This document shows, one piece after another, positions 5,931 through 20,690 of a stretch of DNA of 51,579 nucleotides; position 1 is the stretch's first letter; every line of letters starts with the position of its first letter. The stretch comes from a virus. The translations under genes were made by a program, and so were the position numbers. The stretch lies in the IMG/VR virus record IMGVR_UViG_3300042516_002999, positions 1 through 51,579 of that record. One strand, written 5' to 3'. The notes under the pieces were generated by a model, which saw only the letters and a list, made by a program, of their open reading frames with translations, was not told where the DNA came from and did not search any database.

Positions 5931-5933
5931 TCT

Positions 5934-6803: not shown

Positions 6804-6804
6804 A

Positions 6805-7055: not shown

Positions 7056-7075
7056 GAGGTAATTTACGAATAAAA

Positions 7076-7485: not shown

Positions 7486-7765
7486 AGTTCCGCCTCTCCC
7501 CTATTCTGCCCCTGAAGGATACTATTATGAGTGTGAAGAGTTCAAGCGAAATGTTGTCAGTATTTGGTTATGCAACACTCGCAAGTTTGTCTATAATAAT
7601 GGTGTTCCAACCAGAACTATACACTCCTTCTACAATACCAAAACCAGAGAGTATTTCGCCCCCATCAATAGTAAAACCATTGGTGCTTGTGTAAATATCA
7701 AGGAAACGCGAAATTACACTACAATGCCCATCAAGCAGTCCCCATTAGATGCGTTCTTTGTATGA
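7475..7765 (+). CDS. Hypothetical protein
   Basis: 96 residues from ATG 7475; a longer reading back to 7406 would run through the coiled-coil gene and is unlikely. The sequence starts MTVEVPPLPYSAPEGYYYEC and has many Tyr, Asn and Thr residues (RKFVYNNGVPTRTIHSFYN, TREYFAPINSKT), suggesting a beta-rich domain. The next gene starts inside its stop. Confidence 0.55.
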   Translation: MTVEVPPLPYSAPEGYYYECEEFKRNVVSIWLCNTRKFVYNNGVPTRTIHSFYNTKTREYFAPINSKTIGACVNIKETRNYTTMPIKQSPLDAFFV

Positions 7766-8037
7766 CATACAAACCACAAGTCAATGATTATGTTGAATGG
7801 ACAAAAGGTGTTGAGGGTTGGGTTTATTTTAGGGATGATGAATACATAACGATTGAATATGTTGTTCGCCCTAAAGATGAAGAAAACTATGAATGTTGTC
7901 CTATTCATAAGAATGAAAGATTGCTTGTAGTTTGTTACAAAGAAGATTGGAAACAGTTGAAGTATGTTAGATCAAGAAAATCAAGATATGAAGAAGAACA
8001 AGAGTGCTTGGCGTTGGTGGGCGAAAGCATTAGGTGA
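7762..8037 (+). CDS. Conserved cyanophage protein
   Basis: 91 residues from ATG 7762. The pattern MTYKPQVNDYVEW, GVEGWVYF, YITIEYVVRPKDEENY, CCPIHKNERLLVVCY is known from many cyanomyoviruses and resembles a small SH3-like beta barrel. The Cys-Cys and His residues could bind metal. The C-terminus overlaps the following membrane-protein gene by 74 bases. Confidence 0.65.
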   Translation: MTYKPQVNDYVEWTKGVEGWVYFRDDEYITIEYVVRPKDEENYECCPIHKNERLLVVCYKEDWKQLKYVRSRKSRYEEEQECLALVGESIR

Positions 8038-8254
8038 AAAAGCAAGTAAATGTGATCGTGAATCGGATAAGGTTGCCCTTATCCGAACTTTTATTTTTGC
8101 AACGTATTTGATTACCAATGCTTTTATTGTCGCTGGTGTAATTCGTCACTGGAATGATGAGACGAAGATTGAAGTATTTGTGGAAACTTCTACTATTCCA
8201 GAGTATGAAACTCCATCAGTCAAATACTCAAATAAGACCCTTGAGTTTGAGTGA
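7964..8254 (+). CDS. Single-pass membrane protein, conserved in cyanophages
   Basis: 96 residues from ATG 7964; ATG 7988 (MKKNKSAWRWWAKALG) fits the start of relatives better. Both overlap the previous gene. The segment WRWWAKALGEKASKCDRESD is followed by a membrane helix (FIFATYLITNAFIVAGVI) and an acidic tail. It is the last gene before a late promoter at 8256. Confidence 0.6.
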   Translation: MLDQENQDMKKNKSAWRWWAKALGEKASKCDRESDKVALIRTFIFATYLITNAFIVAGVIRHWNDETKIEVFVETSTIPEYETPSVKYSNKTLEFE

Positions 8255-8255
8255 A

Positions 8256-8263
8256 TATAAATA
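8256..8263 (+). promoter_or_regulatory. T4-type late promoter
   Basis: Exact TATAAATA, 20 bases before the ATG at 8284. It marks a block of late genes inside the otherwise early small-gene region. Confidence 0.75.
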
Positions 8264-8283
8264 TCTAAAAAGTTATTCGTAAC

Positions 8284-8931
8284 ATGGACGCTCAAGACAT
8301 TCGCAATCTTCAAGAAGCATATTTGGAAGTTGTTAGTAATCAACTTGATGAAGTATTAGATACTCCACAAAAAACGCAATCTTATGCGGCAAAAAATGCT
8401 GCTTCTGCTGTGGGAGCATTTGTTAGAGGAGATAAAAAAACTCTATCTAAAAGATTTGAGGGTGCTAAACGAGGAATGAAAAAGATTGAAAAAAGAAAAG
8501 AGCAAAAAGAACAAGTAGATATTTACGACATCATCCTCTCACATCTTCTTGATGAAGGATATGCTGAAACTGAAGAGGCAGCATCTGCAATTATGGTGAA
8601 TATGAGTGAAGAGTGGAGAGAGAGTATTATGATTGCTGAAGGTATGACGATGAAAGATTTCAAGGCAAATCGTAAAAAAGCAAAAGCGTCTGCTACTCGT
8701 GCTGATGCTGTGAAGAGAGGTCATGTAGGTAAGGAATGGTATAACAGTGGTAGAAGATATTCTCCAGATGAAGCAAAGAGAATGCGTTCAAACCTGGATG
8801 ATGAAGAAAGACGCACGAGACATCGTAGTGCTGTAGATCCTGATAATGAGAATGATGATAACTTCTCTGCAGACAAGACGAAGAACCCCAAGAAACTTCG
8901 TAAGCAAAAAGCAATGGGAGAATTAGGATAA
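8284..8931 (+). CDS. Conserved cyanophage virion-associated protein (putative)
   Basis: 215 residues. The start MDAQDIRNLQEAYLEVV and the segment DIILSHLLDEGYAETEEAAS with MSEEWRESIM (about residues 78-117) match a family common in cyanomyovirus genomes, usually listed as structural or hypothetical. Residues 120-215 are highly charged and basic, ending KNPKKLRKQKAMGELG. A consensus late promoter precedes it and a similarly basic gene follows after one base, so it is likely made late and packaged or used in assembly. No enzyme motif is present. Confidence 0.7.
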   Translation: MDAQDIRNLQEAYLEVVSNQLDEVLDTPQKTQSYAAKNAASAVGAFVRGDKKTLSKRFEGAKRGMKKIEKRKEQKEQVDIYDIILSHLLDEGYAETEEAASAIMVNMSEEWRESIMIAEGMTMKDFKANRKKAKASATRADAVKRGHVGKEWYNSGRRYSPDEAKRMRSNLDDEERRTRHRSAVDPDNENDDNFSADKTKNPKKLRKQKAMGELG

Positions 8932-8932
8932 A

Positions 8933-9511
8933 ATGCTAACATTCAGAGAGTTTTATCAAATCTGCGAGGGTAAGAAACCTGATACTCCTCCACATGCAGT
9001 TCCTGGAACTTACAAGAGAGATAGTGAAGGGAATATTTCCTATACTCTTCAGCGTTATGATGGTCCAATGGGTAAACCGAAAAAGAAAGAAGTTGATAAG
9101 TTGATTGTGAAGCGTAGTGGAGGCAAGGCAGTAACTGATAGAATAAAGAAACTAGCAAAATCTGTCAAAAAGATTGATGAAGATCTAGAACAAAGAAGAC
9201 AAGATCTTCGACAAAGACAATTTGGGCAAATGCAAGCATATAAACAAAAAGTTGCAGACTATAAAGCATCTCAAAGAGAGAAGCAACAAGCATCTTCCGA
9301 AAGAGAAACTCTAAAAAGGGAAATTAAGAGAGAGTTGCAAACAGAGCAAACTCCGCATATGAAGCCAAATCTTTATAGTAAGCAAGTGGCAATGCGACAA
9401 GCAGCACAAAAAACTGCACAAATTAAACATGTTCATCAAGAACTTGGCGCGGAGGCAAGAGCACAACAAGCACAGAAAAGAGCAGAAATGAGAGCAATAC
9501 TTTCTCGTTGA
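8933..9511 (+). CDS. Putative internal head protein with a capsid-targeting N-terminus
   Basis: 192 residues. The N-terminus MLTFREFYQICEG has the pattern of the T4 internal-protein targeting peptide, which ends (I/L)xE before the cut made by the gp21 prohead protease; here the cut would follow E13. The rest is very basic and helical, rich in Gln, Lys and Arg (EDLEQRRQDLRQRQFGQMQA), as expected for a DNA-associated packaged protein. A related N-terminus occurs in the gene at 10152. It lies directly downstream of the late promoter and the gene at 8284. The same composition could also suit a scaffold-like protein. Confidence 0.6.
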   Translation: MLTFREFYQICEGKKPDTPPHAVPGTYKRDSEGNISYTLQRYDGPMGKPKKKEVDKLIVKRSGGKAVTDRIKKLAKSVKKIDEDLEQRRQDLRQRQFGQMQAYKQKVADYKASQREKQQASSERETLKREIKRELQTEQTPHMKPNLYSKQVAMRQAAQKTAQIKHVHQELGAEARAQQAQKRAEMRAILSR

Positions 9512-9550
9512 ATTAAAATAGCTCACCTTCAAAGTGTCCTAGTAATGTAG
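9510..9550 (+). repeat. Dispersed intergenic repeat, copy 2 (leader type)
   Basis: GAATTAAAATAGCTCACC followed by TTCAAAGTGTCCTAG and TAATGTAGGC. The anti-Shine-Dalgarno-like block has one change (ACCTTC). ATG directly followed by TAG lies at 9544-9549. The following gene begins at 9565. Confidence 0.88.
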
Positions 9551-9564
9551 GCAAGAAACAAATT

Positions 9565-9729
9565 ATGGACTGCTTCGACGACATTCAAATTGAAGACTTT
9601 TCTACCTTTGATTTTGTTGAAGAGATGAATGAGTTTCTCTCTGATGGGGAAGATGATGACCGACTTTTCCCCAATGTTCACACCAAGTTTGATGTGAATG
9701 AATACCTTAACGGAAACTATGATTATTGA
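9565..9729 (+). CDS. Small acidic protein
   Basis: 54 residues, extremely acidic: MDCFDDIQIEDFSTFDFVEE, then DGEDDDRLF. Such charge is typical of phage DNA mimics or inhibitors, but no family is recognised. It is the first gene of a repeat cassette, with a 15-base leader after the repeat. Confidence 0.55.
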   Translation: MDCFDDIQIEDFSTFDFVEEMNEFLSDGEDDDRLFPNVHTKFDVNEYLNGNYDY

Positions 9730-9731
9730 TT

Positions 9732-9917
9732 ATGCCTGAAACTTATACTTTTGGAGGCGATGCTGTTACCATCCTTGGTTTGGTTGGTGTTATTTCAGCG
9801 TTTGTTATTGTTGTTACTGCCTTCAAGCGGTTTTATTATTCTCCTTACAATGTTCGTGTGACACCTAAGCAAGTGTCTACAGAAACCCCCACCGATCACA
9901 ATTCTACTGTATCCTGA
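9732..9917 (+). CDS. Single-pass membrane protein
   Basis: 61 residues from ATG 9732; the TTG at 9726 is in frame but would overlap the preceding stop. Residues 10-32 (AVTILGLVGVISAFVIVVTAF) form a membrane helix with a basic patch after it (KRFYYS) and a Thr/Ser-rich tail. It is separated by two bases from the upstream gene. Confidence 0.55.
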   Translation: MPETYTFGGDAVTILGLVGVISAFVIVVTAFKRFYYSPYNVRVTPKQVSTETPTDHNSTVS

Positions 9918-9921
9918 ACAA

Positions 9922-10122
9922 ATGATTGAACAAATCCCTAACGTGCTTCCTCACATTCGTGAACTGAAAGATGCTTGGAGGAAGCAAGATTTTAAGTTCA
10001 CTAAACAGCAACAAGAAGAATATGATCTCCTACTTGCTACCCGACGTGAACGTGTGAAGCAATTTTATGCTGAAGGACGTGTATTCAAAGGTGCATATAA
10101 AGCAAAGGAAGAAGAGTTCTAA
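9922..10122 (+). CDS. Small helical hypothetical protein
   Basis: 66 residues beginning MIEQIPNVLPHIRELKDAWR, basic in the middle (RRERVKQFYAEGR) and ending KAKEEEF. It is charged and helical. Its stop lies within a CTAAATA box that probably starts transcription of the next gene. Confidence 0.55.
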   Translation: MIEQIPNVLPHIRELKDAWRKQDFKFTKQQQEEYDLLLATRRERVKQFYAEGRVFKGAYKAKEEEF

Positions 10123-10125
10123 ATA
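10119..10125 (+). promoter_or_regulatory. Probable late promoter (CTAAATA type)
   Basis: CTAAATA, the common cyanophage form of the T4 late box, 26 bases before ATG 10152. It overlaps the upstream stop codon. Confidence 0.5.
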
Positions 10126-10151
10126 CTAAAAAGTAGTGTTTAGATAGAACA

Positions 10152-10829
10152 ATGCGTAGTTTTCAGGAGTTTATGTCACTTTGCGAAGCATCTGATGCTG
10201 ATGCTGCTAGTAAACTTGGTTGGGGCGGTGGTGCTTCCATTATCAAAACTGGTGCAGGTGGTAGAATAGGTAAAGAGCGCAAAAAGACTGCTCCTGAAAG
10301 ACGCAGAGTAAAAGCAGTTGGTGGTGGTAAAACTGAACCAGTTGCTTATAAGACACGCAAAGATGTTGGTCAGCAAAGAGGATCTTCAGCACCTGCACCT
10401 GGAAGAGGAGCAGGTGCAACAGCATTGAAACCTGGAACTGCAGGAACTCAAGGAAGTGCTGCAATGACTGCTAAAGAGAGACAGCGTAAAGCATATCTTG
10501 AGCGTAAAGCAAAAGAAAGTGGTAAAGAACAACCAAAGACTGCATCACAAGCAATCGCTCAAGCTAAACCACAACAAGAAAAGAAACCAGCAGCAAAACC
10601 ACGCAGACAGTGGAAAACAGAAACTGGTGCTCCTATGACACGTCAGGAGAGAGATGCTGCTAGAAATAGAGAGAAAACTCAAGCAGCACAAAAAACTAAG
10701 AAATCTGCTACTGAGATTCTTGCACAAATGCGTAGAGAATACGAAGCAGATGGTGGAAAGTGGAGTAATGCTGTTGCTGTTCGTATGAGAGCAAAAGCAA
10801 AAGCAGCAGCACAAGCATCAGGGAGTTGA
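10152..10829 (+). CDS. Second putative internal head protein with a capsid-targeting N-terminus
   Basis: 225 residues. MRSFQEFMSLCEA matches the N-terminal pattern of the protein at 8933 and of T4 internal proteins; a gp21-type cut after E12 in LCE is expected. The remainder is low-complexity and highly basic, rich in Ala, Gly, Gln, Lys and Arg (PAPGRGAGATALKPGTAG and EKKPAAKPRRQW), ending KAKAAAQASGS. No enzyme motif is present. A late promoter precedes it and an intergenic repeat follows. A packaged DNA-binding or ejection role is inferred from composition and N-terminus. Confidence 0.6.
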   Translation: MRSFQEFMSLCEASDADAASKLGWGGGASIIKTGAGGRIGKERKKTAPERRRVKAVGGGKTEPVAYKTRKDVGQQRGSSAPAPGRGAGATALKPGTAGTQGSAAMTAKERQRKAYLERKAKESGKEQPKTASQAIAQAKPQQEKKPAAKPRRQWKTETGAPMTRQERDAARNREKTQAAQKTKKSATEILAQMRREYEADGGKWSNAVAVRMRAKAKAAAQASGS

Positions 10830-10833
10830 GACC

Positions 10834-10880
10834 AATTAAAGTTACTCACCTCCAAAGTGTCCTAGTAGTATAAGGACAAC
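10834..10880 (+). repeat. Dispersed intergenic repeat, copy 3 (leader type, with hairpin)
   Basis: Variant with AATTAAAGTTACTCACC, then TCCAAAGTGTCC and TAGTAGTATAAGGAC. ATG is replaced by ATA. TGTCCT (10858-10863) and AGGACA (10873-10878) can pair as a 6-bp stem. The following gene starts at 10893. Confidence 0.88.
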
Positions 10881-10892
10881 ACTCAAAACATT

Positions 10893-11051
10893 ATGCTTTG
10901 GCAAGACCGCAACGGTAACTGGTTCATGACCAAATCTGCCCTTGATATGAAGATTGAGCAAGCAATGATTGCTGAGAACGCTAACAAAGTATGGGAAGAA
11001 AAAGAGCGTTCTGGTGATTGGTTGTTTGATGAAATGTTCGCGGTTGATTAA
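10893..11051 (+). CDS. Small hypothetical protein
   Basis: 52 residues starting MLWQDRNGNWFMTKSALDMK. It contains a helical middle (IEQAMIAENANKVWEEKERS) and an acidic end. It is the only gene of its cassette and is followed within ten bases by a terminator-like hairpin. Confidence 0.6.
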   Translation: MLWQDRNGNWFMTKSALDMKIEQAMIAENANKVWEEKERSGDWLFDEMFAVD

Positions 11052-11060
11052 CTGCCCACC

Positions 11061-11101
11061 AGCACGCTCCACAGTCGCCTGTAAGCGTGCTATTTTGTCT
11101 T
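11061..11101 (+). terminator. Terminator-like hairpin
   Basis: AGCACGCT (11061-11068) pairs perfectly with AGCGTGCT (11084-11091) across a 15-base loop, followed by ATTTTGTCTTT. It ends the cassette of the gene at 10893. Confidence 0.6.
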
Positions 11102-11124
11102 TACCTATCAAACCACTGAAAGCA

Positions 11125-11322
11125 ATGAATTACATTCAAATCCCTGATTTTGTCTTTGATGATGTCATTCGCCTTCTCCAAGAGGGTGTTAATGTCTCCA
11201 AGAATGTTGATTTCAGTTCTAATCCTGAAACTGAGAGAAGTCCATCCTTTGCGAATGGGTACAATCGTGCTACAATGCAAGGTGTGATTGATAAACTGAA
11301 CTACTATAAGAAGGCGAATTAA
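11125..11322 (+). CDS. Small hypothetical protein
   Basis: 65 residues from ATG 11125; longer in-frame starts would run through the preceding gene and terminator. It starts MNYIQIPDFVFDDVIRLLQE and ends with a helix (QGVIDKLNYYKKAN). The stop TAA is part of the AATTAA at the left edge of repeat copy 4. Confidence 0.6.
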   Translation: MNYIQIPDFVFDDVIRLLQEGVNVSKNVDFSSNPETERSPSFANGYNRATMQGVIDKLNYYKKAN

Positions 11323-11357
11323 AGTTACTCACCTCTGAAGTGTCCTAATACTAGATG
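11316..11357 (+). repeat. Dispersed intergenic repeat, copy 4 (degenerate)
   Basis: GAATTAAAGTTACTCACC is intact, followed by TCTGAAGTGTCCTAATAC. The right end reads CTAGATGATG, so the helicase start codon falls just inside or after the repeat. Confidence 0.8.
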
Positions 11358-12599
11358 ATGATTCCAATGCAAATCCAACTTCGCCCACATCAGCAACGTG
11401 GTCTTGATGCTATGGCGAAGCATAATAAAGGACAGTTGATTAAACCAACTGGAGCGGGAAAAACTTTGACTATGATTTCAGATGCTCTGCGTGAGTTGCA
11501 GTCTGAAACTCCGCAGACCATTGTTGTTGTTGCTCCCCGCATCTTGCTCGCTGAGCAACTGTCTTCTGAGTTCCTGGAGTTTATTACCAACGCAAAGGTT
11601 TTCCATATCCACTCGGGAGAGACGCATCACGAGTCTTCTACTCGTCCCTATGAGATTCGTCGCTGGGTTGATGCCAATGCTGACAATCATCGCTTGATTG
11701 TAACCACTTACAACTCTCTGTCGCGTCTTCAAGTGGCAGGAATTGATGTGGATACGATCTACTTTGATGAGGCACATAACAGTGTTCAGCGTCACTTTTT
11801 CCCTGCAACTGAGCACTTTGCTGCTAACGCACGTCGCTGCTACTTCTTTACTGCAACTCCCAAACATTCCCTCGCTACTGGCAAACCTGGGATGAATGAT
11901 GCTGCTGTTTATGGTCAGGTAATCTGCAAAGTCCCAGCTCCTGAGTTAGTCGAAGGTGGGTACATTGTTCCTCCTAAAGTGATCGTCAAGCAACTGGAAA
12001 TGGTACAAGGTAAGCAGACTAACTTCGACCGCGATGCTGCTAACCTGCTGGAAACCATTGATGACAACAAGGTCGGTAAGATTCTGATTTGTGCTAAGGC
12101 AACCAAGCAAATCGTGTCTCTTGTGTCTGAAACTGATTTCTGCTTTGAACTAGAGCAACGTGGTTACTCTTGGATGTATATTACTGCCAAGACTGGTGCT
12201 GTGATTGATGGCAAGAAAGTGAACCGTGAAGTATTCTTCGACACCCTATCTGCCTGGGGTAAGGATAACGATAAGAAATTCGTTGTTCTACACCACAGTA
12301 TCCTCGCTGAAGGTATCAATGTGAGCGGTCTGGAAGCAGTTCTTTTCCTGCGTAACATGGACTTCATTGGCATCAGTCAGACGATCGGACGTTGCATCCG
12401 TTTGCATCACGATGATGCCAAAGGTCTGCGCGATGGCAGTATCCAACCTGGCAACCTGGGTCAGTATACCAAATCGTTCGGTCTGGTTTGCATCCCAGTC
12501 TACAGCAAGGTTGGTATCAGCACCGCACGCGCTGTGCAGTCTGTGGTTGATACGATCTTCCAGAAGGGCGAACCCGCTATCAGTGTGGTGCGGCGGTGA
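11355..12599 (+). CDS. Superfamily 2 DNA/RNA helicase
   Basis: 414 residues. Motif I (Walker A) is PTGAGKT at 31-37, motif II is DEAH at 138-141, motif III is TATP at 166-169 and motif VI is QTIGRCIR near 342-349, so both RecA-like lobes are present. LRPHQQRGLDAM at 9-20 is the Q-motif-like start of RecG/UvsW/type III restriction-like helicases. The enzyme would use ATP to unwind or remodel nucleic acid, probably in replication, recombination or R-loop removal. It lies downstream of a degenerate repeat, has a GC-richer codon use than the small genes around it, and is followed by a GGGGT/ACCCC terminator. It is shorter than T4 UvsW and lacks an obvious extra N-terminal domain. Confidence 0.88.
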   Translation: MMIPMQIQLRPHQQRGLDAMAKHNKGQLIKPTGAGKTLTMISDALRELQSETPQTIVVVAPRILLAEQLSSEFLEFITNAKVFHIHSGETHHESSTRPYEIRRWVDANADNHRLIVTTYNSLSRLQVAGIDVDTIYFDEAHNSVQRHFFPATEHFAANARRCYFFTATPKHSLATGKPGMNDAAVYGQVICKVPAPELVEGGYIVPPKVIVKQLEMVQGKQTNFDRDAANLLETIDDNKVGKILICAKATKQIVSLVSETDFCFELEQRGYSWMYITAKTGAVIDGKKVNREVFFDTLSAWGKDNDKKFVVLHHSILAEGINVSGLEAVLFLRNMDFIGISQTIGRCIRLHHDDAKGLRDGSIQPGNLGQYTKSFGLVCIPVYSKVGISTARAVQSVVDTIFQKGEPAISVVRR

Positions 12600-12613
12600 C
12601 GCCCCCACCAGGG

Positions 12614-12637
12614 ATAGGGGTCAAAACCCCGATTTTT
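12614..12637 (+). terminator. Terminator after the helicase gene
   Basis: GGGGT (12617-12621), loop CAAA, ACCCC (12626-12630), then GATTTTT. The helicase gene ends 15 bases upstream. Confidence 0.65.
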
Positions 12638-12707
12638 CTGCAATTCTATGTCACAGACCCTATGGGTCATCCGCTGCAATCAAAACCACTATTTTTTTGA
12701 AAGTATA

Positions 12708-12887
12708 ATGAAAGAAGCATTTACGATGTTCAAGGATACTTATGCTGCCATTCCTTATGGAAATCAGTATCTCATCATTCACAATGGTCAACAACTTGAT
12801 AAACTTTGTAGGACTGAAAGTTCAGCAAGAAAATATATCACCGATCACAAAAAAGGTAAGTCAATGGCAAAACTTCCTGTGAATTAA
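12708..12887 (+). CDS. Small hypothetical protein
   Basis: 59 residues from ATG 12708; ATG 12726 (MFKDTYAAIPYGNQYLIIHN) is an equally good start because a TATAAT box overlaps the first ATG (12704-12709). The sequence reads as a small beta domain followed by a basic helix (ESSARKYITDHKKGKS), like cyanophage proteins of this length. Its stop TAA comes from the left edge of repeat copy 5. Confidence 0.6.
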   Translation: MKEAFTMFKDTYAAIPYGNQYLIIHNGQQLDKLCRTESSARKYITDHKKGKSMAKLPVN

Positions 12888-12925
12888 AATAGATCACCTC
12901 CAAACTGTACTCATAGTATAAGCAT
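12881..12925 (+). repeat. Dispersed intergenic repeat, copy 5 (leader type, best 16S-tail match)
   Basis: GAATTAAAATAG then GATCACCTCC, which equals ten bases of the 3' end of 16S rRNA, then AAACTGTACTCATAGTATAA. The ATG is absent; the nuclease gene starts at 12933. Confidence 0.87.
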
Positions 12926-12932
12926 CCAACAA

Positions 12933-13493
12933 ATGACCTACCTAGAAGACAACCTGCTTCCGTTGGTTCTTTCTATCAAACCTAAGAAGACTGAATCTTA
13001 CATTCTTCAGGCACTTGGTCTTGATGATCGTGTTTCTCCGCAGTCTATTTTGATTGCTTTCGGTGAGCGAATTGAGCAATTCTGGAATACTGTTATTAGT
13101 GACAGTCTGGTGGCACAAAACCTCATTGAAGAAAGCAATCTGATTGATGTGAATGGTCGCACTCGTCAAATTGATCATCTGTTCCGAATTGATGAGACTT
13201 GGTATCTCGAAAGCAAGTGCAATCTCAACTTTGATAGTGAGAAAGTTCGTGCATCTAACGAGAAGATCAAGGACATTACCAGTGTTCTTGGTGTTGATGT
13301 AAAGTCGGGGTATTTTGTCCCCGTTGTTGCAGAAGTTAGCAAGAAAGAAAAAACCAAGTATAACAACAAGGGTGTGGAAGTTTATGGTGTAAATTGGATG
13401 ATTGAGACCATTCAAGCACCTTTCACTTCCGAAGAATACTTTACCTTCCTCCGTGAAGTTGTTGCTCCTATCCTTGAAGAAATGGGTCTTTGA
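12933..13493 (+). CDS. PD-(D/E)XK nuclease, putative restriction endonuclease
   Basis: 186 residues. RQIDHLFRIDETWYLESKCN at 78-97 supplies the fold's active site: D81, then E93-S-K95 (ExK), with E48 in an upstream helix as the usual extra acidic residue. The following helix (SEKVRASNEKIKDITSVL) fits restriction-enzyme-like members. It would cut double-stranded DNA with Mg2+. It lies 31 bases before a Dam-type methyltransferase, the layout of a type II restriction-modification pair, so it may cut unmethylated host or rival-phage DNA, perhaps at GATC. The exact family is not recognised, and a DNA-repair or host-genome-degradation nuclease is the alternative. Upstream lies a leader-type repeat. 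Confidence 0.7.
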   Translation: MTYLEDNLLPLVLSIKPKKTESYILQALGLDDRVSPQSILIAFGERIEQFWNTVISDSLVAQNLIEESNLIDVNGRTRQIDHLFRIDETWYLESKCNLNFDSEKVRASNEKIKDITSVLGVDVKSGYFVPVVAEVSKKEKTKYNNKGVEVYGVNWMIETIQAPFTSEEYFTFLREVVAPILEEMGL

Positions 13494-13502
13494 TGCTATA
13501 AT
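13474..13502 (+). promoter_or_regulatory. Host-type promoter for the methyltransferase
   Basis: TTGAAG (13474-13479), 17 bases, then TATAAT (13497-13502) preceded by TG, an extended -10. It lies across the last codons of the nuclease gene and 22 bases before the methyltransferase ATG, so the methyltransferase can be made without the nuclease. Confidence 0.7.
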
Positions 13503-13524
13503 TAAAAGAAAGATTGAGTAACCT

Positions 13525-14331
13525 ATGAAACCAATCGTAAAATACCAGGGTGGCAAGAGTAAAGAATTGCCACTCATCAAACAACTAGCACCTTCACAGT
13601 TTTCAAGGGTTGTAGAACCTTTCTGTGGAGGTGCTGCAGTATCATTTGGGCTGGGTTATCCTGCTCTGATGAGTGACATCAACCGCGATGTCATTAACTT
13701 ATACTCTGTGGTTGCAAATGAGGAACTTTATCCTCAACTGCAGGTGAAGGTTGACTGTATCAAAGGACTGGAGCATGATGATCTTGAGAAGGAGTTTTAT
13801 GCTGCACGAGAGGCAATCAATCAACCGTGGGATTGTGTAGATCCACTTCAGAGAGCATTATCATACATTATTGTGCGACAGTTGTGCTTTTCGGGAATGG
13901 AAAGATACAATGCCAAAGGTGAGTTTAATGTGCCCTTTGGTCACTATAAACGATTTTCTTGTAATTTGTCTCCTGATCATCACAATTTCTTGAGTAAGAG
14001 ATGTGTATTCAGATACGGGTCATTTGTGGATCTGTTTGGTGAAATCAATGCAGATGACTTTGTGTTCATTGATCCACCCTATCTTGAGCGACTTGGTTAC
14101 ACTCAGGGCGATGGTGGTTCAAGTCTACATGAAGACCTTTTAGGTTGCCTGAAAGCAACAAAAGCAAAATGGATGATTATTCATTCTGACCATGAGTTTT
14201 ATCGTGAGAGTTACAAAGACTTTAACATTATTGAAAAGGACTTTGCTTATGCCCAACGATTTGGTAAGGATAAGGATCACAGTGGAGCAAAAGTGAAGCA
14301 TCTTTACATTACAAACTACGAGACAAATTAA
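13525..14331 (+). CDS. dam: DNA adenine methyltransferase, D12 class (Dam-like)
   Basis: 268 residues, the usual size for Dam. KYQGGKSK at 6-13 and VVEPFCGGAAV at 29-39 form the S-adenosylmethionine site, DPPY at 183-186 is the catalytic motif IV, and FSGMERYNAKGEFNVPFG at 122-139 is the conserved target-contact region. The enzyme transfers a methyl group to adenine N6; Dam relatives act on GATC, but specificity cannot be read from sequence alone. It has its own promoter and sits behind a putative restriction nuclease. GATC is common in this window, so such methylation would matter for self-protection or for escaping host enzymes. It is intact. Confidence 0.9.
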   Translation: MKPIVKYQGGKSKELPLIKQLAPSQFSRVVEPFCGGAAVSFGLGYPALMSDINRDVINLYSVVANEELYPQLQVKVDCIKGLEHDDLEKEFYAAREAINQPWDCVDPLQRALSYIIVRQLCFSGMERYNAKGEFNVPFGHYKRFSCNLSPDHHNFLSKRCVFRYGSFVDLFGEINADDFVFIDPPYLERLGYTQGDGGSSLHEDLLGCLKATKAKWMIIHSDHEFYRESYKDFNIIEKDFAYAQRFGKDKDHSGAKVKHLYITNYETN

Positions 14332-14366
14332 AATAGCTCACCTCCAAAGTGTCCTAGTAGTGTGAG
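14326..14366 (+). repeat. Dispersed intergenic repeat, copy 6 (leader type)
   Basis: AAATTAAAATAGCTCACC, TCCAAAGTGTCC, TAGTAGTGTGAGG. The ATG is changed to GTG followed by TGA. Just to the right GTGAGG (14362-14367) and CCTCAC (14374-14379) form a hairpin. The following gene starts at 14400. Confidence 0.9.
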
Positions 14367-14399
14367 GGTCGCACCTCACAGAAGTTTCTAACCTAAACC

Positions 14400-14669
14400 A
14401 TGACTTTTTACTGGAAGTTCGTTGATACTCTCGTCCGCAACATTGCTACTATCGCTGCTGTTGTTGTCGGTGTATCTCAATTCTTCATTCGTTCCTTCAA
14501 TGAGAACAATGGAAGTGAGAAAGTTCGCTCTGCAACTCTTCAGTTTCTGAAGTTTGTTGACATGCTGATTGAGTTCAGTAAAGCACAACTTTCTCCTGCT
14601 GTTGTAGTGGATCAACCTCAAGTTGTACCTGCTACTGTTACCAAAACTCGCAAGCGTCGTTCCGCTTGA
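14400..14669 (+). CDS. Membrane-anchored hypothetical protein
   Basis: 89 residues. Residues 10-30 (TLVRNIATIAAVVVGVSQFF) form a membrane helix. A helical domain follows, then a Pro/Val linker (AVVVDQPQVVPATVTK), and the protein ends in a basic cluster TRKRRSA. It is the only gene of its cassette and is followed by a terminator-like hairpin. Confidence 0.6.
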   Translation: MTFYWKFVDTLVRNIATIAAVVVGVSQFFIRSFNENNGSEKVRSATLQFLKFVDMLIEFSKAQLSPAVVVDQPQVVPATVTKTRKRRSA

Positions 14670-14680
14670 TAAACTGCCAC

Positions 14681-14722
14681 AGGAGCACTTGCTTTTATGC
14701 TTGTGCTCCTTTATTGTACTTT
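14681..14722 (+). terminator. Terminator-like hairpin
   Basis: AGGAGCAC (14681-14688) pairs with GTGCTCCT (14703-14710), followed by TTTATTGTACTTTT. It lies 11 bases after the stop of the gene at 14400. Confidence 0.6.
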
Positions 14723-14738
14723 TGTTCGTGAAACTCCA

Positions 14739-14942
14739 ATGATTTTTGTTACTTCCACCAATCACGGTTGTGTCTACACTCTGTCACAAGAAGATGGCGA
14801 TGAGTTGTACTATGCCCCCATCTATTCTGATGGTAGTGTAAATCTAGAGGAGTTTGCACCTGTAGATTTAGATGCTGCAGATTTGGATGAAATGGAATTG
14901 TTTGACATTCGCAATCGCCTCATCAAACTGGCAGAAGTTTGA
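14739..14942 (+). CDS. Small acidic hypothetical protein
   Basis: 67 residues from ATG 14739, chosen because the longer in-frame start would overlap the terminator hairpin. The first half is beta-like (MIFVTSTNHGCVYTLSQEDG and ELYYAPIYSDGSVN), the second acidic and helical (VDLDAADLDEMELFDIRN). Repeat copy 7 follows directly. Confidence 0.6.
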   Translation: MIFVTSTNHGCVYTLSQEDGDELYYAPIYSDGSVNLEEFAPVDLDAADLDEMELFDIRNRLIKLAEV

Positions 14943-14944
14943 TC

Positions 14945-14985
14945 TAATAAAATAGCTCACCTCCAAACTGTCCTAGTAGTATGAG
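14945..14985 (+). repeat. Dispersed intergenic repeat, copy 7 (start-codon type)
   Basis: TAATAAAATAGCTCACC, TCCAAACTGTCC, TAGTAGTATGAG. The ATG of the ligase-like gene (14981) is part of the repeat. Confidence 0.92.
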
Positions 14986-15901
14986 TAAGAAACCAATGCA
15001 AAACAAACACATTGAACACCCCGAAGATTGTATCTTGAATGGTGATCTTTCTGTTCTTGATTGGTTCTCTGAAGTTGATAGTTTTATCAGCGTAAAGATG
15101 GATGGTGCTCCTGCTGTTGTGTGGGGCACTAATCCTGAGAATGGTAAGTTTTTTGTTTGCACCAAAGCAGCATTTAACAAGCAAAAGATTCGCCTTTGCT
15201 ATAATGAGGATGATGTATTTGAGCATTTTGGTGGTCAACCTCGCGTAGCACAAATCCTTATCTATTGCCTGGAGTTTCTGCCTCGCACTAAGAAAGTGTA
15301 TCAGGGTGATTGGATTGGTTTTGGTAAAGGGTTGGATACATTTACGCCCAATACGATTACCTACAAGTTCCCTGAGATTGTGCGGCAGGAGATTATCATT
15401 TGCCCTCATACTTACTACACTGGTGACAAACTGCCTGAGATGGTAGCACATCCTATCACTAGCAAGTTTGTGAGCACTAAGACTGTTCTGTTTGTGCAAC
15501 CTGAGGTGTCTCTGAACCCTTATCGTGAAGATTTGGAAGATGTGTGTAAGTTTGCCAAGCAAATGAGCACCCTATGTGAGTTTGTGTCTGATCGCAAGGC
15601 ATCACAAATCAAAAAAGAGTTAAATGCCTGCATCAGGGAGCAAAGGGTCATTGATGAAGATGAAATTGCAGAAAAATGTGATTGTGATAAGAACTTGATC
15701 CGTTTGTGGAAGTTGGTGAAGTCTATCAAGGATGATTTGTTCCTGTTCATTCACGAACTTGACGACATTGAATGTTCTATCAATGGTATTGATTCCTTCC
15801 ACGAAGGTTATGTCATCCACAACAAGTTTGGATCGTTCAAGGTAGTGGATCGTGAGACATTCTCTCATGCCAACTTCACGATGGCAAAGAGTTGGGGATG
15901 A
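14981..15901 (+). CDS. Putative ATP-dependent DNA/RNA ligase-like nucleotidyltransferase
   Basis: 306 residues. K39 in VKMDGAP (38-44) fits motif I (KxDG), where the nucleotide is bound covalently. GDWIGF (109-114) is placed like motif III, EGYVI (275-279) like motif IV and FKVV (286-289, K287) like motif V. Order and spacing match the covalent nucleotidyltransferase fold of ligases and capping enzymes, although the 160 residues between motifs III and IV are long and contain a helical insert (about 180-265). No OB-fold or motif VI follows, as in minimal ligases. It would seal nicks or adenylate a nucleic-acid end; substrate unknown. The start codon lies in repeat copy 7. An inactive or RNA-modifying relative is possible. 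Confidence 0.6.
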   Translation: MSKKPMQNKHIEHPEDCILNGDLSVLDWFSEVDSFISVKMDGAPAVVWGTNPENGKFFVCTKAAFNKQKIRLCYNEDDVFEHFGGQPRVAQILIYCLEFLPRTKKVYQGDWIGFGKGLDTFTPNTITYKFPEIVRQEIIICPHTYYTGDKLPEMVAHPITSKFVSTKTVLFVQPEVSLNPYREDLEDVCKFAKQMSTLCEFVSDRKASQIKKELNACIREQRVIDEDEIAEKCDCDKNLIRLWKLVKSIKDDLFLFIHELDDIECSINGIDSFHEGYVIHNKFGSFKVVDRETFSHANFTMAKSWG

Positions 15902-15940
15902 TTAAAATAGCTCACCTCCAAAGTGTCCTAGTAGTATGAG
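15901..15940 (+). repeat. Dispersed intergenic repeat, copy 8 (start-codon type)
   Basis: ATTAAAATAGCTCACC, TCCAAAGTGTCC, TAGTAGTATGAGCAC. It begins directly at the stop of the ligase-like gene and contains the next ATG (15936). Confidence 0.93.
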
Positions 15941-16367
15941 CACAACTACAATGCAAGCACAAGCAAAACAAACTATTGCAGAGAATGTACTCAAGTACAC
16001 TCACATGCTGATTGAAGCACTGAAAGACAACTATCGTCAGTATGCTATTCGTGGTCATCAGCGTTCTGTTGAACTTGGTGAAAGTGTAGAGCATCATCTT
16101 CTCAAGATTGATGAACTCAAGTCTGGTAAAACGGACATTGATTATACCATTGAGACTGGTAAAAAGTATCACAAAGTTGTGATGATTGATGGTGGTGGTA
16201 GCAGGTCAGTACACTGCTTCATCGACAAGAATACTGGTGAGATGTATAAGAGTTCCAGTTGGAAATCTCCTGCCAAAGGAGTTCGCTACGATTTGCGATT
16301 GATTAAAGATCGTGAATATGTTTTGGAGAATTGCGATTGGGCATCCGGATATATGTACGCAAAATGA
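15936..16367 (+). CDS. Conserved phage protein
   Basis: 143 residues. The leader MSTTT precedes a second Met (MQAQAKQ). After a helical part, residues 75-143 contain YHKVVMIDGGGSRSVHCFID, TGEMYKSSSWKSPAKGVRY and CDWASGYMYAK, a combination known from many T4-like and T7-like cyanophages. It looks like a small beta-rich domain with conserved Trp and His. Function is unknown. It is the first of three overlapping genes of this cassette. Confidence 0.7.
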   Translation: MSTTTMQAQAKQTIAENVLKYTHMLIEALKDNYRQYAIRGHQRSVELGESVEHHLLKIDELKSGKTDIDYTIETGKKYHKVVMIDGGGSRSVHCFIDKNTGEMYKSSSWKSPAKGVRYDLRLIKDREYVLENCDWASGYMYAK

Positions 16368-16624
16368 GTAACACAATGTACGACACTGAAATGACTTACG
16401 ATGAACAAATCAAAGAAATGACTGTCACAAAGTCGCTCAAACTTCTGCGTGATGGGTTCAAGAATGAACTTGCCACTGCTCTATTCACAGATGAGCGCAC
16501 AACTGAACTTTTTGCTCAACTGATTAGTGAGTTTGTAGAGACAAACATTCCCGTGGTTGATGATGAGAACCAGATGGAACTTTCGATGATGCTGTTGGAA
16601 ACTCTTGACATTGTAGCACGATGA
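16364..16624 (+). CDS. Conserved cyanophage helical protein
   Basis: 86 residues from ATG 16364, which overlaps the previous stop. MSNTMYDTEMTYDEQ opens it, then amphipathic helices (LKLLRDGFKNELATALF, ELFAQLISEFVETNI). Relatives occur in several cyanomyoviruses at a similar place. It is acidic and probably all-alpha. Function is unknown. Confidence 0.65.
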   Translation: MSNTMYDTEMTYDEQIKEMTVTKSLKLLRDGFKNELATALFTDERTTELFAQLISEFVETNIPVVDDENQMELSMMLLETLDIVAR

Positions 16625-16875
16625 CTAGCTCAAATCTCTCCAAGATCAAACCCAAACTGAGAACAACTGGGCGTGTGTCTGGTAACTTTGGCAAATCAAA
16701 AGTTGTCGCAGGTTCTTCACTCAATGAGATTGGTGGTGATGGTAACATAGGTGCCACACAAGATGAGTACCTCAATCGTCTTTATTATGCTTTTGATAAT
16801 ACTGACGACAACAAACTAAAACAGTTTATTTACAACGAAATCCGCAACATTCACGTCCAAAGAGGAACGTGGTAA
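16621..16875 (+). CDS. Small hypothetical protein
   Basis: 84 residues. The first 45 are basic and Ser/Gly-rich and look disordered (SKIKPKLRTTGRVSGNFGKS). The second half is a helical acidic domain (EYLNRLYYAFDNTDDNKLKQ). It is coupled to the upstream gene by ATGA. The nucleic-acid-binding tail is only a suggestion from charge. Confidence 0.6.
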   Translation: MTSSNLSKIKPKLRTTGRVSGNFGKSKVVAGSSLNEIGGDGNIGATQDEYLNRLYYAFDNTDDNKLKQFIYNEIRNIHVQRGTW

Positions 16876-16879
16876 CGGG

Positions 16880-16920
16880 CAATTAAAATAGCTCACCTCC
16901 AAAGTGTCCTAGTAGTATGA
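16880..16920 (+). repeat. Dispersed intergenic repeat, copy 9 (start-codon type)
   Basis: CAATTAAAATAGCTCACC, TCCAAAGTGTCC, TAGTAGTATGACC. Contains the ATG at 16917. Confidence 0.93.
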
Positions 16921-17165
16921 CCAACACTACCGACCGCAAGTTTCACAACATCTCCCTCGAAGATCGTGAAATGTTTGCCTACAACGCCGCTTATGAGCGT
17001 AAGCAACAACAACTCGCTAAAGTTACTCCTGAGCAGCGTATCAAATACTGCTTTGAGTTTCTGAAAGGTTACGTTGCTGAAGGTGATTCTGAAATGGCAA
17101 AGCGTTGCTATGATGGTATCGCTAAGTACAGCGAAGTTCTTGACACCTCTGAGGCACACTACTGA
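16917..17165 (+). CDS. Small hypothetical protein
   Basis: 82 residues starting MTNTTDRKFHNISLEDREMF. It is predicted helical (EQRIKYCFEFLKGYVAEGDS) with a mixed charge. It starts in repeat copy 9 and opens a six-gene cassette. No family is recognised. Confidence 0.6.
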   Translation: MTNTTDRKFHNISLEDREMFAYNAAYERKQQQLAKVTPEQRIKYCFEFLKGYVAEGDSEMAKRCYDGIAKYSEVLDTSEAHY

Positions 17166-17332
17166 TGAAAAACTATCGCCTTCTGATTGAGTATTGGGTT
17201 CCTGATGAAGATGAGAACCTGTATGAAGAAAAGATCATCCAATCTCGTTCATCTTGTGGTAAAATCGCTGATGATTATCTAGCACAAGATCGCACAAATC
17301 TTATCCGTTCTGTTGAAGTTACCCCTGTTTGA
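17165..17332 (+). CDS. Small hypothetical protein
   Basis: 55 residues beginning MKNYRLLIEYWVPDEDENLY, then KIIQSRSSCGKIADDYL and a C-terminal strand (LIRSVEVTPV). This beta-alpha-beta pattern is common among small cyanophage proteins. It starts on the previous stop. Confidence 0.55.
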   Translation: MKNYRLLIEYWVPDEDENLYEEKIIQSRSSCGKIADDYLAQDRTNLIRSVEVTPV

Positions 17333-17334
17333 TT

Positions 17335-17508
17335 ATGACTGAAGAACAAATCCTACAACTTGCCGAAAAGTTCAAATTCTGTCTTCGTGATGAAGATGAT
17401 ATTAGAAACTGGAAAGTAACTCCTTCTCTTATTCTTGAGTTTGCCCAAGCAATGTATGATGAAGGTTATGAGCAGTGTTGTTTTGATATGGGAGATGAAA
17501 ATGTATGA
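17335..17508 (+). CDS. Small acidic helical protein
   Basis: 57 residues starting MTEEQILQLAEKFKFCLRDE, acidic and helical, with a Cys pair near the end (EQCCFDMGDENV). It lies two bases after the previous gene and overlaps the next by four. Function is unknown. Confidence 0.55.
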   Translation: MTEEQILQLAEKFKFCLRDEDDIRNWKVTPSLILEFAQAMYDEGYEQCCFDMGDENV

Positions 17509-17699
17509 CTGACGGTTACACTTTCAATCGAGTTGAGTTCACTGCTAATGAGGAAACTTGCATCCTTAAGTTTCTCAATCAAGCACGAGAATGTGGATAC
17601 CCAAGTGCAAACGAGGAATGGTATCCTGTGATTGATTCTATCTTTCAAAAGTTTTTCAATTCTAACATCAAAGAAGCACAACCGTTTCAAACACTATGA
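17505..17699 (+). CDS. Small hypothetical protein
   Basis: 64 residues (MTDGYTFNRVEFTANEETCI). It is mixed alpha/beta with aromatic residues (EEWYPVIDSIFQKFFNSN). It is coupled to both neighbours by ATGA overlaps. No family is recognised. Confidence 0.55.
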   Translation: MTDGYTFNRVEFTANEETCILKFLNQARECGYPSANEEWYPVIDSIFQKFFNSNIKEAQPFQTL

Positions 17700-17839
17700 A
17701 GTACATTGTTGATCTATACGTTGGTGGTAAAGTCTTCAAGGAAGAAGTACAAGCAACCAACCCACAAGATGCCCGTGAAACTGCATTGGCACGAAATCCT
17801 AAGGCAAAAGTTGTTGGTGTCAACGTAAGTTTCAAGTGA
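17696..17839 (+). CDS. Small basic hypothetical protein
   Basis: 47 residues: MKYIVDLYVGGKVFKEEVQA, then a helix (PQDARETALARNPKA) and a last strand (VVGVNVSF). The beta-alpha-beta layout with a DARETAL helix is seen in small phage proteins of unknown role. Repeat copy 10 begins at its stop codon. Confidence 0.6.
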   Translation: MKYIVDLYVGGKVFKEEVQATNPQDARETALARNPKAKVVGVNVSFK

Positions 17840-17880
17840 TTAAAATAGCTCACCTCCAAAGTGTCCTAGTAGTATGAGCA
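17839..17880 (+). repeat. Dispersed intergenic repeat, copy 10 (start-codon type)
   Basis: ATTAAAATAGCTCACC, TCCAAAGTGTCC, TAGTAGTATGAGCAC. Contains ATG 17874. Confidence 0.93.
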
Positions 17881-18140
17881 CTTCACAAACCATGATCGAG
17901 TTTCCTACTCTCCAGTCTAAAGATGGTACAATGATTGTTGGTTTCTATCCCATTGAGGATTGTTCCAACTATACTCTCAAGGTTCTTTCTTGGAAGGGTA
18001 TTGATACCATCTCTCAAAAGTGTCTGACCAAAAAAGATGCACAACGCGAGATTGATGAGCGTCTTGCAATGGATTATGTGATCACTGGTGATAACATTAA
18101 CCTGGTGCAAGAATACAACTTTATGGCAGGTGCAGTTTGA
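17874..18140 (+). CDS. Small hypothetical protein
   Basis: 88 residues. The leader MSTSQT is followed by a second Met (MIEFPTLQSKDGTMIVGFYP). The protein continues with strands (NYTLKVLSWKGIDTI) and a helix (DAQREIDERLAMDYVI). It may be a small alpha/beta regulator. It overlaps the next gene by one base. Confidence 0.6.
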   Translation: MSTSQTMIEFPTLQSKDGTMIVGFYPIEDCSNYTLKVLSWKGIDTISQKCLTKKDAQREIDERLAMDYVITGDNINLVQEYNFMAGAV

Positions 18141-18274
18141 TGCGAATTGCTTTTTTGATTGCTACTCTAGCACTCGGTCTTCGCTTTGGTTTGATTGCAC
18201 ACGCAACGACCAATGAGTATCAAGAACAACAGGCAGATCAGTTCTGCCAAGTAAACCTTAACTACTGCAAATGA
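18140..18274 (+). CDS. Small exported or membrane-anchored protein
   Basis: 44 residues. MRIAFLIATLALGLRFGLIAH looks like a signal peptide or membrane anchor; HATTNEYQE follows and the tail has two Cys (FCQVNLNYCK) that could form a disulfide outside the cytoplasm. It is coupled to both neighbours. Confidence 0.5.
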   Translation: MRIAFLIATLALGLRFGLIAHATTNEYQEQQADQFCQVNLNYCK

Positions 18275-18471
18275 TGCTTTTCCAAGTTACTGCAATCGAG
18301 TTTGATTTTGATGAAGATGATGACTTTCCCGAGCATGAGTTTAGTAACATTACCGATGAAACTATCGGTATGATTTGGGAAGCAGATGATGAAGATGATC
18401 TAGTTGAAGAGATCACATGTGCAACAGGTTGGTGTATCAAATCCATTGATTATCGTCACGTTCTGAAATGA
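18271..18471 (+). CDS. Small acidic protein, paralogue of the one at 19642
   Basis: 66 residues from ATG 18271 (65 from 18274). VTAIEFDFDEDDDF and DLVEEITCATGWCIKSIDY align with ITEIEFDFDYEDL and DLVDCISDNTGWCVKSLKY of the protein at 19642, so the two are paralogues. The fold is probably beta-alpha-beta with a conserved GWC. It is highly acidic. Function is unknown. Confidence 0.65.
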   Translation: MMLFQVTAIEFDFDEDDDFPEHEFSNITDETIGMIWEADDEDDLVEEITCATGWCIKSIDYRHVLK

Positions 18472-18647
18472 TTGTTTACGGTGTTTATGCCCGTCTTGAT
18501 GAATACGAACCCGATGAACTTTATGGTTTGTATGCTAACGAAGAAGACGCAAATCGTCGCGCAGAGGAAATGAAACAAGAATACAATGAGGATTACAAAG
18601 ATTCTCAGTATTGCGACGTTCAAGTTCACCAACTCAAAGTTCAGTAA
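18468..18647 (+). CDS. Small acidic hypothetical protein
   Basis: 59 residues starting MIVYGVYARLDEYEPDELYG, then a charged helix (EEDANRRAEEMKQEYNEDY) and a last strand (VQVHQLKVQ). The beta-alpha-beta layout recalls small ferredoxin-like phage proteins. It starts on the preceding stop. About 55 non-coding bases follow before repeat copy 11. Confidence 0.6.
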   Translation: MIVYGVYARLDEYEPDELYGLYANEEDANRRAEEMKQEYNEDYKDSQYCDVQVHQLKVQ

Positions 18648-18703
18648 AACTAATGATTTCCCTTCCTAACTTCGCTCAAAAAAGTGTAACACAATAAACA
18701 CCC

Positions 18704-18748
18704 AATTAAAGTTACTCACCTCCAAAGTGTCCTAGTAGTATGAGCACT
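18704..18748 (+). repeat. Dispersed intergenic repeat, copy 11 (start-codon type)
   Basis: CAATTAAAGTTACTCACC, TCCAAAGTGTCC, TAGTAGTATGAGCAC. TAAAGT variant. Contains ATG 18740. Confidence 0.92.
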
Positions 18749-19102
18749 TCCACTGAAACCACTAAAATGTCTGTTCACTACGCAAATCTGTTCGCTCAGA
18801 ATATCAATCTCACTGCTGAGTCTATCGCTGATTTCGCCCGTACTTTCAAGAGCAATATGTTTGATAAGTACACACGATATGACGGTAAAGTGTATATCAA
18901 GCACAGTGTAGATTCTAAAACAAAGGGAGATGTATTCTCTGTAGAAGCAATGTTCTATGAGTACAAAGGTTGCTGGTGTGGTAATCAGAAAACCTTTGCA
19001 CAGTTTGATAACTTTGCTGATGCGATTGACTGTGCTCGGATTGTAGAACTGCCTGAGGGTAGCATCAGCGAGGATGAAGCACTTTCACTGATGCGTAACT
19101 GA
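18740..19102 (+). CDS. Hypothetical protein
   Basis: 120 residues. The leader MSTSTETTK precedes a second Met (MSVHYANLFAQNINLTAESI). The body holds KYTRYDGKVYIKHSVDSKTK and MFYEYKGCWCGNQKTFAQF, a mixed domain with a CWC motif, and an acidic helical end. It is the only gene between two repeats, a single-gene cassette. No family is recognised. Confidence 0.62.
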   Translation: MSTSTETTKMSVHYANLFAQNINLTAESIADFARTFKSNMFDKYTRYDGKVYIKHSVDSKTKGDVFSVEAMFYEYKGCWCGNQKTFAQFDNFADAIDCARIVELPEGSISEDEALSLMRN

Positions 19103-19112
19103 AACTGACTTT

Positions 19113-19155
19113 GAATTAAAATAGCTCACCTCCAAAGTGTCCTAGTAGTATGACC
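19113..19155 (+). repeat. Dispersed intergenic repeat, copy 12 (start-codon type)
   Basis: GAATTAAAATAGCTCACC, TCCAAAGTGTCC, TAGTAGTATGACC. Contains ATG 19150. Confidence 0.93.
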
Positions 19156-19332
19156 AACACCTCTTTCGACTTCCAAACCGACATCACTCCTGCACTTCTG
19201 GAGTTTATGTGCAACAATCACACAGATCTGAATGATTGTGTAGATTTTGTTTGCTGCCTTTTTGACCTTGATGCAACTGATGAACTAATTGATCAGATTG
19301 CAGACGAGTTTGATGCTTTCTTCGGTAACTGA
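19150..19332 (+). CDS. Small acidic helical protein
   Basis: 60 residues, strongly acidic: MTNTSFDFQTDITPALLEFM, then helices with three Cys (DCVDFVCCLFDLD) and DELIDQIADEFDAFFGN. It is probably all-helical. Nothing similar is recognised. It opens a three-gene cassette. Confidence 0.55.
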   Translation: MTNTSFDFQTDITPALLEFMCNNHTDLNDCVDFVCCLFDLDATDELIDQIADEFDAFFGN

Positions 19333-19339
19333 TAAAATT

Positions 19340-19426
19340 ATGCTAACGGGTATTCTTGTCCTTGTTGCTTATACTTTCGGAGCAGCAAATGTCCTTTTGA
19401 TTCAATACCTCAATAACAAAGAATGA
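19340..19426 (+). CDS. Very small membrane peptide
   Basis: 28 residues, MLTGILVLVAYTFGAANVLL and a short tail. It is a single membrane helix. The call rests mainly on its tight fit: seven bases after the previous stop, and the next gene's ATG inside its stop. Confidence 0.4.
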   Translation: MLTGILVLVAYTFGAANVLLIQYLNNKE

Positions 19427-19611
19427 CTGCATTTGTAACACCCAAAAGCAAGAAAGCACACAATCGTTTCTGTAACTTAATGAACCGCAATCAGGAGTGT
19501 ATTGTGGAACAACATTGTGGAGACAAAATGTTTCTAACCTCTGCCAACGGTAAGAATCACTTTTGGGTCAATCTTACTGCAGATGTTGACTGGAACATTG
19601 AGTTGAATTAA
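19423..19611 (+). CDS. Small basic protein, near-duplicate of the gene at 20691
   Basis: 62 residues: MTAFVTPKSKKAHNRFCNLM, then NQECIVEQHCGDKMFLTSAN and HFWVNLTADVDW. The first 69 nucleotides are identical to those of the gene at 20691, and the proteins match along nearly the whole length. The basic start, the Cys residues and the strand pattern suggest a small nucleic-acid- or protein-binding domain. The stop is provided by the left edge of repeat copy 13. Confidence 0.65.
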   Translation: MTAFVTPKSKKAHNRFCNLMNRNQECIVEQHCGDKMFLTSANGKNHFWVNLTADVDWNIELN

Positions 19612-19872: not shown

Positions 19873-19881
19873 GTTAAAATT

Positions 19882-20097: not shown

Positions 20098-20102
20098 TTA
20101 GA

Positions 20103-20686: not shown

Positions 20687-20690
20687 CTCA

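Follow-up and report, generated by a model that had tools for sequence, protein, structure and literature searches.

Two adjacent genes of a T4-like cyanophage, encoding a PD-(D/E)XK nuclease and a Dam-family DNA methyltransferase, probably form a phage-encoded Type II-like restriction-modification (RM) module with an interchangeable nuclease, which probably protects GATC; cleavage, specificity, and use are inferred. The genes were found in a fragment of 51,579 nucleotides (IMG/VR record IMGVR_UViG_3300042516_002999), here called the window. For both genes, the closest isolates are the Synechococcus phages S-CAM8 and S-WAM2 (Kyanoviridae), and one IMG/VR contig has nuclease and methyltransferase at 100% identity to the window. 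An earlier note made from the sequence alone had proposed a possible RM pair, and this reading is supported by the conserved pairing of the genes, by unrelated nuclease-like genes in the same slot, and by a nuclease relative in locus L067 which lies between two methyltransferases. No paper describing the pair was found in a literature search, the scope of which left out most subscription journals.

The two genes and their products

Both open reading frames are on the plus strand, the nuclease gene at 12933..13493 (186 aa, presumed restriction component) and the methyltransferase gene at 13525..14331 (268 aa, presumed modification component), with a gap of exactly 31 bp (13494-13524). This agrees with the earlier note, which had also numbered the catalytic residues D81, E93, and K95 correctly. 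None of the three varies in 24 close and 37 divergent relatives, some of the latter at 23-30% identity, and seven residues in total are invariant in the 37-relative alignment (G44, E48, D81, E93, K95, D101, and K104). The nuclease is under purifying selection (dN 0.016-0.053, dS 0.37-0.75), as is the methyltransferase (dN 0.04-0.09, dS 0.44-0.91).

The only family matched by the window nuclease is phrog_26553, annotated as “unknown function”. Its AlphaFold2 model is confident (pLDDT 95.5, pTM 0.90) and has the PD-(D/E)XK core fold with the D...E-x-K residues at the expected strands. PD-(D/E)XK nucleases were on top in a Foldseek search with this model, namely Card1/Cdn1, EcoO109I, EndoMS/NucS, and XisH. 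EcoO109I is a Type II enzyme (E 0.0085, probability 0.95), but the closest structural neighbors are the CRISPR ancillary nucleases Card1 and Cdn1 and not restriction enzymes, which counts against the RM reading.

A relationship to restriction-enzyme families, which the earlier note had left to be searched for, was found only for members of the nuclease family, weakly, and not for the window protein itself. The HinfI profile was the commonest NCBIfam match (14 of 37 members, best E 8e-4), and the PADLOC family REase_II of Type II restriction enzymes was matched by nine of the 37 (best E 1e-5). Because these matches are weak and the Pfam profile Phage_connect_2, which looks unrelated and is of doubtful relevance, reaches E-values similar to those of HinfI in nine members, they can only be regarded as leads. 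No curated restriction-enzyme family exceeded its cut-off in those scans that show cut-offs, and the window nuclease, when queried directly, had no relative in Pfam, NCBIfam, PADLOC, PDB sequences, or plasmids. Nor was a cellular relative found when bacterial and archaeal genomes were scanned twice with few peptide patterns, a limited approach that does not exclude distant ones. The note held that a match to a non-restriction family would refute its reading; no such match appeared, the weak matches being mostly to Type II enzymes and the fold PD-(D/E)XK.

The likeness to the HinfI/HpyAIV family is thus limited to weak profile similarity, which spans the active-site region in L067 (residues 56-118), the only member for which match coordinates are known. 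The match is far below the cut-off (18 versus 175 bits), and the partner of HinfI belongs to a methyltransferase class different from that of the window. HinfI cuts GANTC, a site left unprotected by a GATC methylase, and this counts against the RM reading as well.

The classification of the second gene as a D12-class (alpha) N6-adenine methyltransferase with a DPPY motif was borne out, as its product passes the cut-offs at full length with 135.8 bits for PF02086 (curated cut-off 22) and 173.1 bits for TIGR00571 “dam” (114.85). DPPY is found at residues 183-186 and is invariant in relatives, and an N-terminal FxGG-type SAM motif is present. The top PDB relative is M.DpnII-1 (2dpm, E 2e-28), followed by E. 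coli Dam (EcoDam). Residues K6, R127, and P137 align with the identical K9, R124, and P134 of EcoDam, while EcoDam L122 is replaced by M; these four EcoDam positions contact the GATC bases. Because the residues at K9, R124, and P134 are conserved, GATC is the likely target, which remains a prediction without any measurement.

GATC had been described as frequent in the window, which is true of the absolute number (192 sites), but the site is neither enriched nor specially avoided. Dinucleotide shuffles gave 197.9 +/- 13 sites, the observed number is 0.76 of a stricter Markov expectation, and GANTC is at 0.61 of expectation. Neither is GATC avoided in 40-kb stretches of the cyanophages S-CAM8 and S-RIM12 (L134-L139 set). 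Cyanophages thus keep an ordinary number of GATC sites, so that a GATC-cutting nuclease would require methylation of their own DNA. As a discriminating test, GATC avoidance was rejected, since T4-like phages of Klebsiella and Salmonella avoid the site with or without the pair (approximately six-fold in 40-kb stretches from the same set of KP179 and STML-198, which have it, and of JD18 and S16, which do not). A separate observation concerns CCGG, which does not occur once in the 40-kb stretches of S-CAM8 (0 of 24 expected) and S-RIM12 (0 of 30) and is not avoided in the window.

Conserved pairing across relatives

The nuclease was found in six of 50,697 phage records, and this methyltransferase is adjacent in all six. 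Twelve phage records contain the methyltransferase at a minimum of 47% identity, each with a nuclease-like gene directly upstream, which belongs to the window nuclease family in six and encodes an unrelated Hjc-like PD-(D/E)XK protein in the other six. The six non-cyanophage records are from T4-like phages of Klebsiella (KP179, KP182, and AShe-2020a) and Salmonella (STML-198). Their partner protein has 205-210 aa, contains VDI...(I/V)DVKSSG, is weakly similar to Hjc nucleases, and is absent from all other phage records of the 50,697. The fold search with the window nuclease also lists a 205-aa protein of STML-198, i.e. one of this partner's length, although weakly (E 0.013).

Methyltransferases from IMG/VR and isolates were grouped into 54 lineages at 95% identity, and their neighbors were assigned to types, where type A is the window nuclease family, A* a very divergent form of it, and B an apparently unrelated protein. 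Thirty-one lineages have type A, six A*, five B, two D, and one C; no neighbor was found in seven, and two end at a contig edge. Among the 52 lineages with the upstream side sequenced, 44 therefore have a nuclease-like gene in the slot. Types B and C were assigned from position and motif only. Three of the five type B proteins weakly match the UpaP162 restriction enzyme, and structure prediction for this type was poor (pLDDT 69), so that neither a confident model nor a meaningful fold match was obtained. The 160-aa type C protein, encoded ahead of the L110 and L111 methyltransferase genes, was not counted and may not be a nuclease; in L111 and L112, a type A gene is instead found downstream of the methyltransferase, at a distance of 343-344 bp.

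Adjacency of the two genes is seen in S-CAM8, S-WAM2, and dozens of IMG/VR contigs, and it persists in a TGA-recoded T4-like phage at approximately 26-27% nuclease identity (27% relative to the S-CAM8 relative) and 32-33% identity to the methyltransferase of the window. In this phage (L125:5388-6795, also L124 and L126), the methyltransferase is readable only with TGA as Trp (W7 and W53), and TGA codons also occur in the tail genes of the L125 contig, among which, on the minus strand, the pair forms a plus-strand cassette. In L067:858-3343, a nuclease relative (approximately 42% identical) is directly flanked by two DNA methyltransferases of the N6_N4 type, which differ from each other. Such an arrangement is known for restriction enzymes with asymmetric sites. 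Directly upstream of two Dam genes outside the methyltransferase clade, those of S-RIM12 and the second one of S-WAM2, no neighbor is annotated or sized like the nuclease.

The earlier note would have considered its reading refuted by relatives having the nuclease without the methyltransferase. This is partly the case, as the genes are separated by 8-10 kb in two phages (approximately 8.4 kb in L017, and 9.5 kb in the 176.7-kb record L058 if this is circular), and no methyltransferase was seen on several incomplete contigs (L027, L028, L032, L045, L061, and others, covering 6-74 kb of approximately 170-kb genomes). All five nuclease records above 150 kb have both genes (S-CAM8, S-WAM2, G015, G023, and G024), and the sole larger nuclease contig without a Dam gene is the 123.5-kb contig of L067 with its two N6_N4-type enzymes. 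In L111, L112, and L115, the nuclease lies 0.3-1.4 kb downstream of the methyltransferase, and L025:1241-2752 contains two tandem paralogous nucleases of the family on a short contig where no methyltransferase is visible. The missing methyltransferase in L039-L042 was discounted, as only 1.3-5.1 kb of upstream sequence is available and the similarly placed L017 has one approximately 8.4 kb upstream. As judged from these comparisons, the pairing is conserved far beyond chance, and the genes are paired and co-inherited, with the exceptions on partial contigs.

The surroundings of the pair are partly conserved. A small plus-strand ORF of approximately 59 aa (12708..12887, with the ATG at 12708 and the longest ORF from 12648) precedes the nuclease gene. 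In many relatives, including those with other nuclease types, its product (YAAIPYG...HNGQQL...CRTESSARKYI) is conserved and encoded just ahead of the pair or of the methyltransferase gene, and its membership of the module is uncertain. A DUF6267/phrog_455 protein of 306 aa (14981-15901) is encoded near the pair in many relatives, and some loci that show no methyltransferase still have it close to the nuclease. A 30-nt leader, CTCACCTCCAAAGTGTCCTAGTAGTATGAG, occurs in twelve copies (0 expected) at window positions 5478-21707, e.g. 14329-14366, 14948-14985, and 15903-15940. Several copies end at the ATG of the next ORF, and a diverged version lies before the nuclease gene (12885-12938). Its core, (G)ATCACCTCC, has the letters of the 16S rRNA 3' end, so that the leader contains an anti-Shine-Dalgarno sequence. 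Among the other compared loci, exact copies occur in L001, L069, and L116 only.

Exchange of the nuclease beside a persistent methyltransferase

On the methyltransferase tree, the distribution of type A requires 17 changes, 13 of which are forced by well-supported branches, and that of type B requires four, three of them forced. The methyltransferases of L024 (type A) and L120 (type B) share 97.7% identity, with unrelated nucleases upstream of them. Identity between the two loci at the DNA level is 93% up to a point 3 bp ahead of the nuclease start, and it resumes at 89% where the nuclease gene ends. The same breakpoint pattern is seen between L018 (A) and L118 (A*). Because identity breaks at the ends of the nuclease ORF in both comparisons, the nuclease gene alone was exchanged beside a persisting methyltransferase. 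Such nuclease-only exchange next to a 98%-identical methylase is unusual and suggests either a protected site shared by non-homologous nucleases or strong diversifying pressure on the nuclease.

Exchange as a unit with sharp breakpoints would also be expected of a free-standing, homing-type (selfish) endonuclease occupying the slot before an ordinary orphan anti-restriction Dam gene. Nucleases of the family elsewhere among tail genes or in tandem copies fit this explanation, and there is a cyanophage precedent in the free-standing homing enzyme F-CphI (PMC6083498). We nevertheless consider it unlikely, as the nuclease gives way to other nuclease-like genes in the slot instead of disappearing, and a family member is placed between two unrelated DNA methyltransferases. 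The association furthermore survives very large divergence (26% nuclease and 32% methyltransferase identity), and the weak profile matches point to Type II restriction enzymes. No homing family was matched in profile scans, and in near-identical backgrounds another gene stands in for the nuclease, but the slot lacks a nuclease in a few lineages.

A promoter-like site (TTGAAG-17-TATAAT with TG before the -10) at 13474..13502 on the plus strand overlaps the nuclease stop codon and is a candidate for a separate methyltransferase promoter. Of 25 non-identical relatives whose spacer measures 27-35 nt, 21 have an exact TATAAT at the nuclease stop, and both types A and A* are represented. Because this promoter-like extended -10 is kept across both types, expression of the methyltransferase may be possible in the absence of the nuclease. 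In other lineages, a few bases are shared by the two genes (overlap of the ATGA type).

Proposed function and comparison with known systems

In the RM module that we propose, the Dam-family enzyme would methylate adenine on phage DNA, most likely in GATC, and the PD-(D/E)XK nuclease would cut the same or an overlapping site when unmethylated, thereby attacking DNA that the phage has not marked. The target would most likely be the host chromosome, whose degradation would supply nucleotides and bring about shut-off. Rival phages may also be attacked, and the data do not distinguish between the two uses. The activity of the nuclease, its blocking by methylation, and its biological target, host or competitor, are thus inferred, as is the GATC specificity. 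The nuclease gene is the exchangeable part, with unrelated or highly divergent ones swapping in precisely upstream of a persistent methyltransferase that often may have its own promoter. Because the GATC methylase gene dmtA is near-universal only outside the group containing the picocyanobacteria, being present in almost all other cyanobacteria (PMC4390886), host DNA is probably unmarked at GATC and could be a target.

Alternatively, the methyltransferase could serve anti-restriction, and the neighboring nuclease could act separately in phage DNA metabolism, i.e. recombination, repair, resolution of junctions, or non-specific degradation of host DNA. The repair nucleases NucS/EndoMS among the fold neighbors, the weak resemblance of the Klebsiella and Salmonella partner to Hjc resolvases, the UvsW-like helicase encoded by the next large gene upstream of the pair, and the two members with the genes 8-10 kb apart can all be cited for this. 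It is difficult, however, to explain without a functional link why unrelated nucleases accompany the same methyltransferase and a related nuclease accompanies others, and the S-RIM12 and second S-WAM2 Dam genes lack such a neighbor directly upstream; we therefore regard a separate nuclease as improbable. It is very improbable that the nuclease is modification-dependent and cuts methylated host or rival DNA instead of unmethylated DNA, since recognition of methylated GATC would lead to self-cutting given the adjacent adenine methyltransferase and the ordinary GATC number, and picocyanobacterial hosts mostly lack a GATC methylase, even though there are no direct data on the specificity of the nuclease and an archaeal virus encodes such an enzyme, HHPV4I (PMC10101028).

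Among known systems, the proposed RM module resembles the GATC-specific DpnII/MboI-type Type II systems in having two adjacent same-strand genes for a PD-(D/E)XK nuclease and a Dam-family methyltransferase, the latter with M.DpnII-1 as best PDB relative. It differs in that the window nuclease is no recognizable member of the DpnII/MboI/Sau3AI family, and in that the pair is located in a lytic T4-like phage whose relatives keep the methyltransferase constant while the nuclease gene changes. Orphan phage Dams such as T4 Dam and P1 Dmt are likewise D12-class adenine methyltransferases, approximately 23-35% identical, and the two cyanophage examples that were checked have no such nuclease gene directly upstream. 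The precedent is given by chloroviruses, which encode methyltransferases with an adjacent small site-specific endonuclease (CviJI and others); these restriction enzymes are believed to break down host DNA at an early stage of infection (PMC7019647). Chloroviruses are eukaryotic viruses, however, no sequence relation to them was found, and no activity has been shown for the window pair. In jumbo phages, REase-fold domains fused to Mom enzymes are predicted to attack the DNA of the host or of superinfecting phages (PMC7824862); here, phage-encoded modification and a REase-fold nuclease are also combined, but the modification chemistry is different and the two parts are fused rather than encoded by separate genes.

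A more far-reaching idea, which we offer only tentatively and which could well prove wrong, is that one conserved GATC methylase acts as a common shield for rotating unrelated nucleases in T4-like cyanophages without the T4-type modified cytosine, and so allows host DNA to be told from phage DNA during degradation of the host genome. If the RM reading is correct, a function can be assigned to phrog_26553 and to the partner gene of the Klebsiella and Salmonella phages, which are all annotated as hypothetical. T4-like cyanophages, which are among the commonest marine viruses, would then carry their own restriction-modification system, and this would suggest how they separate their own DNA from that of the host.
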